A stretch of 64,000 nt of DNA, taken from positions 365,681 to 429,680 of the forward strand of contig JBBEBQ010000005.1 in NCBI GenBank assembly GCA_040882285.1, in the 5' to 3' direction. Shown here piece by piece: positions 4,994-50,822 of this stretch (its first letter is position 1; every line of letters starts with the position of its first letter). Position numbers and translations under genes: made by a program. The DNA is from Gemmatimonadaceae bacterium. Its GTDB lineage: Bacteria; Gemmatimonadota; Gemmatimonadetes; Gemmatimonadales; Gemmatimonadaceae. Below the pieces are notes generated by a model. That model was given only the letters and a program-made list of their open reading frames with translations. It was not told the DNA's origin and made no database searches.

Positions 4994-5126
4994 GCTCCTG
5001 GGATTCTGACGGGGAATCCAAGTTTGGAGTGTGGCAGTATGGAGATGGGAGTTCGGAGTGACTCCGTACTGCCAACTCCTGACTGCCACACTCCAAACTT
5101 GGATTCCCTGTCAGTCCTCTCGGAGC
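4994..5126. repeat. Intergenic palindrome with AGTnnGG heptamers, copy A
   Basis: A 133-nt imperfect palindrome. The left end is GCTCCTGGGATTCTGACGGGGAATCC, itself a small GGATTC/GAATCC hairpin. Then come units AGTTTGG, AGTGTGG, an 8-mer, AGATGGG and AGTTCGG (5021-5056). The right half (5061-5102) has complementary 7-mers ACTCCGT, ACTGCCA, ACTCCTG, ACTGCCA, CACTCCA, and the element ends in GGATTCCCTGTCAG...GGAGC. The inner 20 bp on each side (CCAAGTTTGGAGTGTGGCAGT and its complement) match perfectly. A second copy in the same orientation (6097-6231) lies on the other side of the DUF445 gene. Confidence 0.85.
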
Positions 5127-6096: not shown

Positions 6097-6231
6097 GCCT
6101 CCCGGGATTTTGCCGGGGGATCCAAGTTTGGAGTGTGGCAGTCGGGAGCAATCAGTATGGAGTCACTGCAAACTGTCACACTCCAAACCGTCACACTCCA
6201 AACTTGGATCCCCCGTCAGTCCTCTTGGAGC
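6097..6231. repeat. Intergenic palindrome with AGTnnGG heptamers, copy B
   Basis: A near-copy of the 4994-5126 element in the same orientation. The left end is CCTCCCGGGATTTTGCCGGGGGATCC followed by AAGTTTGGAGTGTGGCAGT. The right end is CACACTCCAAACTTGGATCC then CCCGTCAGTCCTCTTGGAGC. The interior differs from copy A and includes two CACACTCCAAAC units. The right boundary overlaps the 3' end of the minus-strand lipoprotein gene, whose stop codon (6216-6218) and last few codons are written in element sequence. Confidence 0.85.
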
Positions 6232-10039: not shown

Positions 10040-10132
10040 GCTGTTGGCTGTTGGCTGTTAGCTATTGGGCACTACGGAAATGCTGGCGATTGGGAGCGGT
10101 CGCCAACAGCCAATAGCCAACAGCCAACAGCC
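10040..10132. repeat. Heptamer-built inverted repeat abutting the thiD start codon
   Basis: The left arm (10040-10069) is GCTGTTG, GCTGTTG, GCTGTTA, GCTATTG. The right arm (10102-10132) is GCCAACA, GCCAATA, GCCAACA, GCCAACA, GCC. The final GCC is followed immediately by the thiD ATG at 10133. The left arm begins seven bases after the M48 peptidase stop. The whole intergenic region is therefore the element, and thiD has no conventional ribosome binding site. Confidence 0.9.
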
Positions 10133-10918: not shown

Positions 10919-10928
10919 AAACGGCGGC

Positions 10929-11055
10929 GAGCGTTGTGCGTTTCCCGTTACAGCGTTGTGCGTTGGGACGTTAACTGCGGGGGGATCACCCTCGCGGTTC
11001 CCACCGCAGTCTACGTCCTAACGCAAGACAGTTGAACGGTTAACGCACAACGCTC
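10929..11055. repeat. Intergenic palindrome with CGTT heptamers between convergent genes
   Basis: This 127-nt element fills the gap between the convergent thiD and purine phosphorylase genes. The left half has repeated GCGTTGTGCGTT-type units with 7-bp periodicity (one 8-bp step) ending in GACGTTAACTGCGG. The right half is its imperfect complement: CCGCAGTCTACGTCCTAACGC, then AACGGTTAACGCACAACGCTC. It could act as a bidirectional terminator, though no T-run marks it as intrinsic. It shares the 7-bp architecture but not the sequence of the GCTATTG family. Confidence 0.8.
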
Positions 11056-11062
11056 CCCGCTC

Positions 11063-38955: not shown

Positions 38956-39055
38956 GGCGGGGCGGAGCCGTCGGGGATGGCCTTCGGCCGCTACGCGCGC
39001 AAACAACGCGCGCTAAGCCGCGGCCTGCGGCCACCCCCGACGGCTCCGCCCCGCC
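38956..39055. terminator. 100-nt GC-rich hairpin after dnaK
   Basis: The outer 21 bp are perfectly complementary (38956-38976 with 39035-39055, GGCGGGGCGGAGCCGTCGGGG and its complement). Inside, GCGCGC/AAACAA/GCGCGC closes the tip with a further near-complementary stretch between. It begins six bases after the dnaK stop. There is no T-run, so it may be a Rho-assisted terminator, an mRNA-stabilising structure, or a large cruciform. Confidence 0.6.
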
Positions 39056-40716: not shown

Positions 40717-40719
40717 CGA

Positions 40720-40750
40720 GCTATTGGCTGTTGGCTGTTGGCTCTTGGCT
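40720..40750 (+). repeat. Four GCTnTTG heptamers after htrA
   Basis: GCTATTG, GCTGTTG, GCTGTTG, GCTCTTG, GCT in tandem starting four bases after the htrA stop codon. It is a single arm in the orientation of the left arms at 2403, 10040 and 43916. It runs directly into the terminator hairpin at 40751-40783. Confidence 0.85.
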
Positions 40751-40783
40751 AAAAGCGGCGCCGATGTTCGGCGCCGCTTTTTT
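40751..40783 (+). terminator. Intrinsic terminator of htrA
   Basis: AAAAGCGGCGCCGA, a short loop, then TCGGCGCCGC followed by six T. This is a textbook Rho-independent terminator, located between htrA and the tRNA-Leu gene. It confirms the + strand transcript end for htrA. Confidence 0.92.
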
Positions 40784-40959: not shown

Positions 40960-41637
40960 ATGCCACCCCCTGCTGGAGATGAGACCCACGAGCGTCAGGT
41001 GAATCCTCCCACAGGAACGTCGCACCCGGCGCTTCCGCCGTATCGCGCTCTGATACGTCCAACGGTCGCGCTCTTGGCGGCGGCTCTGTTGATCATGATC
41101 GCCACCGGCTATTGCGGCAGCCGCCTGCCCTTCGCCTTCTTCAAAGGCGGCACAAAAGTCACCCACGACCTTGTCGTCGAGCAGATGCGCGCGGTAGCGA
41201 AGCTGGTCTCCAGCGAAGCGACTGTGCGCGACGTGATCGTCTACGAGAACACGTGGTATGGGTCGACCAAGCGCTCGCTTGTCGTCGTGACTGGACGCCT
41301 CCTGGCAGGCATCGACCTCGGCGACAAGCCCGACGTCACGATCGATCACTCCGTCAGGCGTATCACGATGCGCATCCCGTCCGCGCGGCTGATCGGCATC
41401 GAGATCACGGACATGACGACGTATGACGAGCGCGGCGGACTCTGGAATCCGTTCAAACCGGCGGATCGGGATGCGATTCAGCGCCAGGCGCGTGCACAGC
41501 TCACCGCGGCGGGGAGCACGCTCGGGCTGCTGCGGCACGCCAACGAGAGCGCCGTTCACCTTCTTCGAGCGTTGCTGGCGAAAGACGGATATACGGTGGA
41601 CGTGACGATCCGGGGTGCGCCGCCAGCGGTTCGCTAG
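40960..41637 (+). CDS. DUF4230 family membrane-anchored protein
   Basis: A 225-residue protein with an N-terminal cytoplasmic Pro-rich stretch of about 30 residues, one transmembrane segment ([18 protein letters not shown]) and a C-terminal soluble domain. The domain pattern [45 protein letters not shown] and [15 protein letters not shown] is typical of DUF4230, whose function is not known. It follows the tRNA gene by 69 bp and is probably monocistronic. Confidence 0.8.
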
Positions 41638-41679: not shown

Positions 41680-42016
41680 CCGCGTAGGCAACCCACTGGA
41701 AGTCTGCGAGGGGAACCTAGCTGTTAGCACTGAGTGGACAAATCAGTGCTCAGCCCGGGAGTGATACCTGCGGACTGCCAAGTACTGAGTAAAGTTGCGC
41801 GCTATTAAGGGCAGGAGTGAAGGAAACTTTACTCACGACTGTGGCAGGCGAGGCTTCCCCGAAGGTCGCGCTTCCGCATCAGTGCCGCAGCCGAGCGGGC
41901 GAACGTCCCGGGGGTACTTCCTGCTCGCCACTGATCAGTTCACTCGCTGCTAACAGCTAGGATTCCCAAGCAGAATCCTGGTAGCCCGCGACACCCTGTT
42001 GCCTACCCCCGCGAAT
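41680..42016. other. Large multi-arm palindromic region upstream of tig
   Basis: This is the only gene-free stretch longer than 300 bp (41638-42028). No ORF is convincing. Nested inverted repeats span it. The outer arms are CGCGTAGGCAAC and GTTGCCTACCCCCGCG. Next come GGGAACCTAGCTGTTAGCACTG and its partner around 41945-41967 (CTGCTAACAGCTAGGATTCCC). The inner arms are GACTGCCAAGTACTGAGTAAAG and CTTTACTCACGACTGTGGCAG. The tip is near 41800. It resembles the other 7-bp-unit palindromes but is over twice as long. It may be a structured RNA or leader of tig. Confidence 0.65.
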
Positions 42017-42028
42017 TAACTTTCTCTC

Positions 42029-43270
42029 ATGGAGTTTACCTCAAAAGAATCCACCGGAGTCGATCGCCGCATTCAGGTCTCCGTTCCGGTCGAAACCGTG
42101 AAGCAGGCAGAAGAAAAAGCCGCCCGCCGCTACGCCACCAAGGTGCGCATGCCGGGCTTCCGCCAGGGCAAAGCGCCGCCGGCGATGATCCAGAAGAAGT
42201 TCGGCAAGGAGATCCGGCAGGAAGCGCTGGAATCCCTGGTGCGCGACGCCTACGAAGAGGTCGTCGTCAAGCAGGACCTCAAGATCGCGTCGCAGCCGCA
42301 CATCCACGACGTCAAGTTCGAGGATGGCAAGCCGCTGACCTTCGAGCTGCACGTCGAGGTGCGGCCCACGCTGGAGCTCGCGCGCACGAGCGGCTTCAAG
42401 ATCACGCGGCCGAAGATCGAGATCACCGACGCGCAGCTCGCCGAGCAGCTCGAGCAGGTCCGCGACGAGAAAGCCACGTGGACTCCGGTCGAGGACAAGC
42501 CCGCGATGCGTGACCGGGTGCGCGTCACGCTCTCCACCAAGGAAGATTCCGGCGAGTTCGCCGAGCCGCGCGAATACCCCGTCGAGTTGGGCGGCAGCCA
42601 GGCGATCGCCGGCATCGAAGACCTGATCATGCAGCTCGCGCCGGGCGAGACGGTCGAGCGCCCGGTGCAGTGGCCGGACGACTTCCCCGACGAGACGCAG
42701 CGCGGCAAGACCAAGACCGTTCGCGTCACGCTGCACGACGTCAAGCGCAAATCGGCGCCCGATCTCGACGACGCGTTCGCGCGCGAGGTCGGCGACTTCG
42801 ATTCGCTCGACGCGCTGAAGGCGGCGGTCCGCTCCGATCTCGAGCGCCACGCCGAGCGCGAGGCCGACAGTCTCGTCCGGCACCGCCTGCTCGGCGAGAT
42901 AATCTCGGCGAATCCGTTCGCGGTCCCGAAGAGCTGGGTGCGGCAGGTGATGGACGGCTACGTCGAAGCGTACCAGATCCCCGAAAGCGAGAAGGAGAAA
43001 TTCGCGACGGAATTCGTGCCGATCGCGGAGCAGCAGGTGCGGCGCGACCTGGTGATAGACGCTCTCGCCGAGCGCGAGGATCTCGTCGCGACCGAGAAGG
43101 ACCTGGACGACCGGATCACGGAGCTGGCCGAAAAGCGCGGCGCCAACCCGGGACAGGTGTATGCTTCACTCGAGAAGGCGGGCCGGCTCAAGGAGCTGGA
43201 GCGGAGCCTGACCGAGGACAAGGTGTTCAAGTGGCTGCTGGAGCAGAATGAATTTCAGACCGATGCCTAA
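42029..43270 (+). CDS. tig: Trigger factor, ribosome-associated chaperone
   Basis: A 413-residue protein. The ribosome-binding domain carries the signature [20 protein letters not shown] central FKBP-type peptidyl-prolyl isomerase domain (about 145-240) has [13 protein letters not shown] and an intact core. The C-terminal helical arms form the chaperone cradle ([34 protein letters not shown]). It binds nascent chains at the tunnel exit. It is the first gene of tig-clpP-clpX-lon, the common bacterial order. The long palindromic region upstream could form its leader. Confidence 0.97.
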
Positions 43271-43298: not shown

Positions 43299-43916
43299 AT
43301 GCCAACTATCTACACACCGTACGTAATCGAGCGGTCGAGTCGCGGTGAGCGGACGTACGACGTCTTCTCCCGCCTGCTCATGGACCGCATCGTCTTCATC
43401 GGGACGCCGATCAACGACGACGTCGCCAACATCGTGATCGCGCAGCTGCTCTTTCTGGAGGCGGACAATCCGGAGCGCGACATCCACCTGTACATCAACT
43501 CGCCCGGTGGGTCGGTGTCGTCGGGGATGGCGATCTACGACACTATCCAGTTCCTGAAGTCGCCGGTCAACACGAACTGCATGGGGCTCGCCGCGAGCAT
43601 GGGCGCATTCCTGCTGGCCGCGGGCCGTCCCGGCAAGCGCTCGGCGCTGCCGCACGCGCGGATCATGATCCACCAGCCCTCGGGCGGCGCGCAGGGCACG
43701 GCCGCCGACATCGAGATCATGGCGCGCGAGATCCTGTATCTCCGCTCGCAGATGAACACGCTGTTCGCCAAGCACACCGGCAAGCCGGTGGAGCAGATCG
43801 AGCGCGACATGGACCGCGACCGGTTCATGTCCGCCGAGGAAGCCAAGGCGTACGGCGTCATCGACAACGTGATCTCGCATCGGGGCGAGATCGAAGAGGC
43901 GATAAACAAGAAATAG
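43299..43916 (+). CDS. clpP: ATP-dependent Clp protease proteolytic subunit
   Basis: 205 residues from the ATG at 43299, which has a purine-rich GAGGAAGAAGAG ribosome binding site and matches the usual start ([23 protein letters not shown]). An earlier in-frame ATG at 43263 overlaps tig by 8 nt and would add an acidic extension. The catalytic triad is Ser in [14 protein letters not shown], His in [10 protein letters not shown] and Asp in the [19 protein letters not shown] stretch. It forms the barrel that degrades substrates fed by ClpX. The last base of its stop codon is the first base of the following heptamer repeat. Confidence 0.97.
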
Positions 43917-44010
43917 CTATTGGCTCTTGGCTGTTGGCCATTAGCTAACAGCCCCGTTTTTTCCCTGCTTTTCCGCCTCGCCAACAGCTAATAGCCAATA
44001 GCTAATAGCC
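43916..44010. repeat. Heptamer-built inverted repeat between clpP and clpX
   Basis: The left arm starts on the G of the clpP stop: GCTATTG, GCTCTTG, GCTGTTG, GCCATTA, GCTAACA, GCC. The loop includes a CCGTTTTTTCCC T-run. The right arm from 43980 is GCCAACA, GCTAATA, GCCAATA, GCTAATA, GCC. The hairpin and inner T-run may attenuate transcription between clpP and clpX. The remaining 156 bp before clpX shows nothing else clear. Confidence 0.88.
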
Positions 44011-49171: not shown

Positions 49172-49273
49172 GCTCCTGGGATATTCCAAGGGGAATCCAC
49201 CTCAACCGCTTGCCCACATGCGGCTACTGCCCTCGAGAAAGATGTTGGTCATCTACACGGGAACGGTTAGGTG
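49172..49273. repeat. Divergent palindromic element ending on an aminotransferase start codon
   Basis: It begins GCTCCTGGGATATTCCAAGGGGAATCC, the same left boundary motif as at 4994 and 50630. Short complementary ends CACCTCAACCG (49198-49208) and CGGTTAGGTG (49264-49273) follow; the right one contains the GTG start codon of the next gene. The centre is not clearly heptameric, so it looks like an eroded family member. Confidence 0.5.
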
Positions 49274-50596
49274 ACGGCTGTTGAGAGCGAAGTAACCACC
49301 GCCCCCGACTTCGGCGATCAGGACCGTCTCGCCGAATCGTTGTCCGAGCTTTCACGGGGAATGCACCTCTCGGGCATTCTCCGCACCGCCAACCAGGTGC
49401 GCGAGCTGCGGGCGGCCGGCGCCGAGATTCTGGACTTCAGCATCGGCGACTTCGGCCCGAAGTATTTCCGGATTCCGGAGAAGCTGCTGCGCGAAGTAGA
49501 GAAAGCACTCGAGTCCGGCGTGACCAACTACCCCCCGCCACCCGGTCTGGCCGCGCTCCGCAAGGCGGTGAGCGGCTACGTCGAGCGGTGCTCGGGCGTG
49601 CGCTACCCCTTGGAGTCGGTCCTCATTACGTGCGGCGGACGGCCGGTGCTGTATGCCGCGTACCGCACGGTTGTCGAGCCGGGCGACACCGTCGTGTACT
49701 CCGTGCCGTCGTGGAACAACGATTCGTACGCGTGGCTATCGGGCGCCAACGCCGTCGAGATCGAGGCGCTGAGCGAGAACGGATTCCAACCCACGCTCGC
49801 CGAGCTCGAGCCGCACATGCGGACCGCGCGGCTGATATGCCTCTGCTCGCCGGGAAATCCGACGGGCACGGCGATGGCGCCCGATACGTTCAAGTCGATC
49901 CTCGAGGCGATCGTGCGGGAGAATCGCCGGCGCGAGAGCGACGGCAACGAGCGGCCGCTGTTCCTGCTGTACGACCAGATCTACAGCTCGATCCGCGTCA
50001 AGGACAACAAGCATCGATATGCGCTCGCGCTCGTGCCCGAGTCAGCACCCTACGTGCTGACGGTGGACGGTGCGTCGAAGGCTTTCTCGGCGACCGGCCT
50101 CAGAATCGGCTGGCTGCTCGCGGCGCCGGCGATCGTGCGGAAGGCCGGTGAGCTCGTGTCGCACATGGGAGCCTGGGCACCGCACGCCGAGCAGGTGGGA
50201 CTCACGGAGCTGCTGAACGATCCGGACTCGATCGCCGAGTACCGGGAGACGATGGACGCGGCGGTGCACGAGCGCCTCGACGCGCTGCACCGCGGGTTCG
50301 CCGCGATGCGCGAGGAGGGCCTCCCCGTGGACGTGCTGTGCCCCGACGGAGCGATCTACGTGTCGCTGCGGCTCGAGCTCAAAGGGAAGCGGATCGGCGG
50401 GCGGGTGCTGGAGGACAACGAGATGATCCGCTCGCTCGTGCTCGAGCAGGCCGGTGTGGCGCTGGTGCCATTCCAGGCGTTCGGCCTGATGCGCGAGACG
50501 GGCTGGTTCCGGTTGAGCGTCGGCGCCGTCTCCATGGAAGAAATAGCGGAAGCGTTAGCCCGGATTCGGGCGCTGCTCTCCCGGGTTACGCGCTGA
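49271..50596 (+). CDS. PLP-dependent class I/II aminotransferase
   Basis: A 441-residue fold-type I enzyme. Motifs: ILDFSIGDFGPKYF, TNYPPPPGLAALRKAVSGY, the NPTG block SPGNPTGTAM, LLYDQIYSSI with the PLP-interacting Asp and Tyr, Schiff-base Lys in VDGASKAFSATGLRIGW and a C-terminal Arg in WFRLSVGAVS that binds the substrate carboxylate. These assign it to the aspartate-aminotransferase superfamily without fixing the amino acid. The GTG start is embedded in the repeat element. Confidence 0.9.
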   Translation: MTAVESEVTTAPDFGDQDRLAESLSELSRGMHLSGILRTANQVRELRAAGAEILDFSIGDFGPKYFRIPEKLLREVEKALESGVTNYPPPPGLAALRKAVSGYVERCSGVRYPLESVLITCGGRPVLYAAYRTVVEPGDTVVYSVPSWNNDSYAWLSGANAVEIEALSENGFQPTLAELEPHMRTARLICLCSPGNPTGTAMAPDTFKSILEAIVRENRRRESDGNERPLFLLYDQIYSSIRVKDNKHRYALALVPESAPYVLTVDGASKAFSATGLRIGWLLAAPAIVRKAGELVSHMGAWAPHAEQVGLTELLNDPDSIAEYRETMDAAVHERLDALHRGFAAMREEGLPVDVLCPDGAIYVSLRLELKGKRIGGRVLEDNEMIRSLVLEQAGVALVPFQAFGLMRETGWFRLSVGAVSMEEIAEALARIRALLSRVTR

Positions 50597-50646
50597 CGTT
50601 GAATGTGCCAGCTCCTTAGGCCCTTCGCTCCAGGAATATTCCAAGG

Positions 50647-50775
50647 GGAATCCAGGCCGTGAGCAGCGAGCTGTTAGCCTTGAGCGGTCAGCAAAGGCGA
50701 TATTGGACGTAACGTCAAATATCGCAGTTGCTGACAGCTAACCGCTGATTGCTCACTGCTCACGGCCTGGATTCC
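50647..50775. repeat. Intergenic palindrome with GTGAGCA-type heptamers
   Basis: A 129-nt hairpin. The outer 20 bp (GGAATCCAGGCCGTGAGCAG) are perfectly complementary to 50756-50775. The left arm is five 7-mers, GTGAGCA, GCGAGCT, GTTAGCC, TTGAGCG, GTCAGCA. The right arm holds TGCTGAC, AGCTAAC, CGCTGAT, TGCTCAC, TGCTCAC. The tip CGATATTGGACG/CGTCAAATATCG closes it. It precedes the acyltransferase gene by 47 bp. It shows the 7-bp register most clearly of all copies outside the GCTATTG type. Confidence 0.88.
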
Positions 50776-50822
50776 GCTAGTCTTCCACCAGGACCATCGG
50801 ACCACCTCCACCGGCTGCCCCA

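Follow-up and report, generated by a model that had tools for sequence, protein, structure and literature searches.

An intergenic palindrome upstream of tig as a member of a genus-specific, probably mobile repeat family in Gemmatimonadaceae

The long palindrome that lies upstream of tig, the trigger factor gene, in a Gemmatimonadaceae genome is a copy of an interspersed repeat specific to one uncultured genus, here termed F1 (subfamily F1a), and is best read as a non-autonomous, MITE/ERIC-like element that was inserted between tig and a DUF4230 gene; we put the probability of this reading at roughly 0.65. It is favoured by dispersed copies, by ends found in the genus only, by a tig site that is empty in two relatives, by end conservation that continues past the palindrome, by an insertion at 49172, by an intergenic bias and by arms that are as alike between elements as within them. 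It is weighed against by the lack of a target duplication, of an autonomous copy in the 56% of the genome that was read and of a Y1/RAYT gene, by an entropy pattern in the seven-nucleotide units of F1b and F1c that looks like constraint on every copy, by sites common to species and by a slight similarity between the arms of F1c. The analysis covered a stretch of 64,000 nucleotides (the window), the genome that contains it (G000) and other members of the same genus (G001-G003); coordinates without a contig label are those of the window (table 1).

The palindrome and its neighbourhood

A 337-nt palindrome had been predicted from the sequence, and its inverted repeats lie where they had been placed: CTAGCTGTTAGC (41718-41729) pairs with GCTAACAGCTAG (41949-41960), and GAGTAAAGTT (41787-41796) with AACTTTACTC (41825-41834), all enclosed by GTAGGCAAC (41684-41692) and GTTGCCTAC (41998-42006). 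An inverted-repeat dynamic program gives 41703-41974 a score of 75, the best of 20 dinucleotide shuffles of the whole window scoring 61. RNA folding, proposed at the outset as a check, yields -159.5 kcal/mol for the + strand against a mean of -121.9 for 100 dinucleotide shuffles (z -6.8) and -152.1 kcal/mol for the - strand (z -4.1), and on neither strand did any of the 100 shuffles fold as well. The arms had been thought to pair across a single centre near 41800-41810; they are indeed nested but not concentric, an additional branch of about 60 nt in the right half placing the centre of the inner stem near 41810 and that of the outer arms near 41840. The outermost pair extends partly beyond the element's own end and may be a product of chance, not a shared family feature. 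As had been claimed, the palindrome holds no convincing open reading frame (only frames of 47-52 codons), and the sole Rfam match in the window is a tRNA, with nothing on the palindrome.

Table 1. Features of the window, with strand and basis of assignment.
Feature	Position	Strand	Basis or remark
F1c element	5006..5114	.	palindrome read, end alignment
F1c element	6111..6218	.	palindrome read, end alignment
Upstream gene, DUF4230 protein	40960..41637	+	Pfam PF14014, E 3e-21
Outermost inverted repeat GTAGGCAAC/GTTGCCTAC	41684..42006	.	sequence; other copies without the pair
Left outer end of F1a (degenerate GGCTCC box and GGAACC)	41690..41717	+	family end profile, sequence
F1a palindrome core, modules A (left) and C (right)	41718..41959	.	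copies, arm alignment, fold
CIRCE-like string, not a CIRCE operator	41724..41752	+	copy alignment, CIRCE scans
Right outer end of F1a (GGATTCC...CCTGGTAGCC on + strand)	41960..41987	-	R2 match G000:C5:407620-407668, E 6.4e-7
GAATTAACTT block before tig start	42013..42022	+	common to G001 and G002, both without the palindrome; possible promoter part
tig, trigger factor	42029..43270	+	Pfam PF05697 and PF05698
Insertion relative to G001 and G003, solo F1 end	49172..49303	+	starts exactly at F1 outer end
F1b element (earlier placed at 50647)	50644..50778	.	inverted-repeat scan, end alignment

A rival reading gives the palindrome an RNA role, either in cis as a leader or riboregulator of tig or as an independent RNA; a cis leader and a structured non-coding RNA were among the explanations first offered. 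The strong predicted hairpin on both strands and a distance of 54-65 nt from both flanking genes would suit such a role. However, the tig site can be read in G001 and G002 among the relatives (the contig of G003 ends inside tig), and the palindrome is missing from both, where tig is 93% and 84% identical, respectively. Elsewhere the same element stands beside unrelated genes, one for tRNA-Leu and one identified by eye as trpS being examples; the GAATTAACTT block common to relatives intervenes between palindrome and tig start; Rfam offers no match; and compensatory pairing is lacking. A leader or non-coding RNA is therefore very unlikely. The motif [AG]TTAACTT also occurs upstream of clpX and of a tRNA-Leu gene and is common to relatives; scarce genome-wide, it is enriched in the 80 bases before genes (four upstream matches, 0.064 versus 0.002 per kb), and is possibly a promoter part in the phylum Gemmatimonadota.

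A string within the left arm had been likened to the CIRCE heat-shock operator bound by HrcA. The likeness is present as described, TTAGCACTG...CAGTGCTCA resembling the CIRCE half-sites, and the search for HrcA that had been called for finds it encoded in G000. An operator function can nevertheless be dismissed almost entirely. Scans allowing up to three mismatches detect one CIRCE site per genome in G000-G003 (exact in three, with one mismatch in G002); the single G000 site, an exact one, is at G000:C6:58116, on a contig other than that of the window, and the window has no match to TTAGCACTC-N9-GAGTGCTAA with up to three mismatches. The string itself stems from positions that vary among the 10 F1a copies and is not kept in the others.

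A repeat family with conserved ends

F1 denotes the whole group, in which F1a is represented by the tig copy, F1b by the element at 50644 and F1c by those at 5006 and 6111. A motif shared between the tig palindrome and the 50644 element had already been noticed; the resemblance is borne out and is larger than claimed, both being members of F1. Searched against 99 genomes, the 337-base query matched G000, its congener G003 and, marginally over 30 bases, G025, where the surroundings look coding by eye. F1a has four copies in G000 and six in G003, with the ends GGGATCCTAGCTGTTAGC...GCTAACAGCTAGGATCCC. An arm model recovered both arms of each F1a copy together with one extra arm in G003, and gave no more than weak matches in G001 and G002; when read, most weak matches were other long palindromes with GGAATCC...GGATTCC ends, and two weak arm matches (window 13800, L027:3260) were excluded from the alignment. 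Among 84,980 genomes, a collection that may omit the window's own genome, the F1a pattern matched one species, an uncultured Gemmatimonadetes bacterium, and plasmid and viral collections gave no match.

The ends of F1 are bipartite, a GGCTCC box lying about 27 nt outside GGAATCC on both sides. Aligned ends remain conserved outward beyond the palindrome as far as about 28 nt outside GGAATCC (position -28), and F1 thereby possesses the terminal inverted repeats that are a feature of MITEs. At E up to 0.01, an end model (R2) built from 44 of the 97 listed ends detects 105, 83, 30 and 116 ends in G000, G001, G002 and G003, respectively; 37 further genomes from the same family and order yield none. 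If two ends make up one element, this corresponds very roughly to 15-60 elements per genome.

Palindromes recur in the same intergenic slot across species with differing cores. The 50644 element is common to G000 and G001, is replaced by a different core in G002 and survives as a right-end remnant in G003; the F1c element at 5006 is common to G000 and G003 only; and at the 6111 site G002 has an F1c-like element, G003 has an unrelated palindrome and G001 lacks any. Elsewhere in the genome, the core at C5:32153 is F1a in G000 and G003 and F1b in G001, G002 having none, and C8:65699 has F1a in G000, F1c in G001 and G003, and nothing in G002. Retention of the outer ends despite a change of core is clear against background at 50644, moderate at C5:32153 (both sides for G001 versus G003, the left side only for G000 versus G001) and, for G000 at C8:65699, indistinguishable from background. 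By eye, the inner core at 50644 seemed to be inverted in G000 relative to G001, which a test did not support (forward identity 0.86, inverted 0.77).

In orthologous copies the core is conserved to much the same degree as the flanks (identities of 0.99 and 0.94 for two G000/G001 pairs; six pairs were compared, two with poor flank alignment), so that F1 copies evolve about as fast as their flanks and are not subject to rapid hypermutation. Since several sites are common to more than one species, recent mobility of F1 is not demonstrated. The strongest single hint of a role of F1 ends in insertion comes from the 132-nt insertion at the start of an aminotransferase gene (table 1): G001 and G003 are empty there, and the inserted sequence runs on into an apparent decayed copy of the sequence flanking the 50644 locus. 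Solo F1 ends were found at further places too.

Placement was assessed with a home-made gene caller and with all palindrome families pooled. In the first ~850 kb of G000, which is 82-90% coding, 65 of the 69 palindromes scoring at least 65 are intergenic, 46 of them between tandem, 13 between convergent and six between divergent genes; shuffles of 840 kb produced none with such a score. Over 1.62 Mb there are 131, of several unrelated families. Long palindromes are generally held to be unstable in bacteria.

Several of these other palindromes were followed in the relatives. A second family, with GCTNTTG heptad arms, occurs at gene ends (2403-2502, 10040-10131 and 43914-44004, and also at about 40717-40760); the copy at 43914, between clpP and clpX, has no counterpart in G001 or G002, and G003 has an unrelated palindrome in its place. 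A third palindrome, of the GCGTTGTGCGTT type (10924-11060), is present in G000, G002 and G003, and in G001 only the first ~10 bases of its left arm are left, consistent with deletion of the palindrome. The GC-rich palindrome directly after dnaK (38956-39055) is kept in G002 and is short or different in G001 and G003. Another dispersed family (AACTGCCACATAGAACTGCCAAGC), 130-185 nt long, lies mostly between convergent genes (G000 C5:156655, 172829, 191263, 210609 and 349182). Outside the genus, G049, of the same taxonomic family, has six long palindromes of other heptad-like units in 80 kb (L277-L280), and four other sampled relatives have 0-3 long palindromes in 60-80 kb.

Arms, pairing and seven-nucleotide units

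Conservation of pairing in relatives had been put forward as a test of an RNA function, and the F1a copies speak against it. Across 10 F1a elements, arm identity is 0.760 within and 0.773 between elements (permutation p 0.88), and none of 20 departures from consensus is matched in the partner arm. Further tests, from which loci shorter than 600 bases and elements not near one of the three core types were dropped, used a shorter stretch of the arms: 0 of 17 departures were matched for F1a and 3 of 29 for F1b (p 0.22), and F1c showed a slight within-element similarity (4 of 14 matched, permutation p 0.009). F1a and F1b thus give no sign of maintained pairing and F1c a weak one. The absence of covariation speaks against both a selected RNA stem and arm-to-arm repair; the arms resemble two copies of a single recognised sequence.

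The arms of F1b and F1c are composed of runs of 7-nt units, AGTnnGG in F1c and AGCnnTn in F1b. About five positions of each unit hardly vary, and the other two are almost random from copy to copy and show no correlation between arms. In 14 F1b and 21 F1c elements, passed through the same filter, column entropy is near 0 at the fixed positions and 1.6-1.9 bits at the free ones, the genome background being 1.92. Selection for mismatches at the free positions was considered and not supported (permutation fractions 0.38, 0.52 and 0.71). Simple decay of selfish copies would not be expected to leave frozen beside saturated positions; the pattern may reflect old copies under sequence-specific constraint, or a copying process tolerant of variation at those positions.

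Such columns invite an explanation in which F1 is a host-functional site, its arms consisting of repeated units to which a chromosomal or RNA-binding protein binds, and the element being old and kept by selection at each locus. The recurrence of palindromes with different cores in the same intergenic slot of different species, and the similarity of core to flank identity in orthologous pairs, fit that explanation as well. We consider it unlikely, given that F1 is confined to one genus and that many copies, including the one at tig, are absent from sister species. Less probable again, and speculative, is a machinery for reading or writing DNA or RNA seven nucleotides at a time, which would build or maintain inverted arrays throughout the genome and of which the GCTNTTG, GTGACTA and G049 palindromes would be further products.

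Origin of the element and relation to known repeats

The palindrome could also have been made locally, by replication template switching or as a composite of two inverted repeats formed in place, and a recombination-derived palindrome had been suggested. The genome is rich in long palindromes of unrelated families, and the inner arms, built of modules A, B and C, have a recombined look, as such an origin would allow. Against this, the same sequence with the same ends is found at distant loci, and the two arms of one element resemble each other no more than arms of different elements do; a local origin is mostly refuted by the dispersed copies and is now highly improbable. Under the mobile-repeat reading, F1 would be a non-autonomous intergenic palindrome moved by some enzyme, and we infer that the likeness of its two arms comes from recognition of one sequence by that enzyme at either end. 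The long hairpin would then be a by-product of the presence of this recognition sequence in two inverted copies and would not be an RNA structure under selection; any influence of the F1a copy on tig would be incidental.

Among transposases, the search for a mover covered the Y1/RAYT family (PF01797), which has no match in any of G000-G003 (5 of 14 controls matched); RAYT is rejected as the mobiliser of F1. For 37 elements, a few of them anchored one box off, the mean best direct repeat at the flanks is 3.84, compared with 3.77 ± 0.14 when the flanks are shuffled. None of the 37 has a longer repeat than the tig copy (CCCCGCG, 7 bp, nearby), but the set as a whole is no better than shuffled flanks. 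In 1.62 Mb, or 56% of G000, no pair of F1 ends convincingly encloses a gene as an autonomous copy would, and the two wide pairs present each have at least one end at the noise threshold.

Among described repeats, ERIC/IRU elements are imperfect intergenic palindromes, dispersed and with an unknown mover (PMC2229807). F1 resembles them as an imperfect palindrome of the 100-250 bp class that is intergenic and dispersed in many copies and is absent at the orthologous tig site of G001 and G002, but it differs in phylum and sequence, in the lack of detected TA termini or target duplication, in its ~28-nt bipartite ends and in its arms of 7-nt units. Like the Correia/NEMIS and RUP MITEs it is small and dispersed with inverted-repeat ends; those elements are described as having target-site duplications and TA termini (PMC2229807), whereas for F1 neither was detected and no parent insertion sequence was found. 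With REP/BIME sequences it shares intergenic palindromes, a mosaic arrangement and restriction to close relatives. REPs, however, are given as 20-40 bp long and mostly of GTAG- or CGTC-tagged families (PMC3733652), and RAYTs are proposed to spread them, with complementary changes reported to be kept (PMC2817692); F1 has the end consensus GGCTCC...GGAATCC in place of short GTAG/CGTC-tagged hairpins, no Y1 transposase gene in the four genomes and no compensatory changes in F1a. The 7-nt unit of F1 is shared with heptameric tandem repeats, but in F1 the units, degenerate at set positions, form inverted arrays. STRR-type and G4-type tandem repeats are the heptameric repeats meant here. F1 belongs to the known class of interspersed intergenic palindromes and is not a MITE or REP proper, because defining features of those two groups were tested for and not found.

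A literature search that included Gemmatimonadota found no description of the F1 repeat family, and an apparent regulatory leader of tig becomes a member of a Gemmatimonadota repeat family that looks unreported. The genus bears a heavy load of long intergenic palindromes, and the fixed and saturated positions of the 7-nt units give a definite pattern, open to testing, by which the protein that recognises or spreads F1 might be sought.
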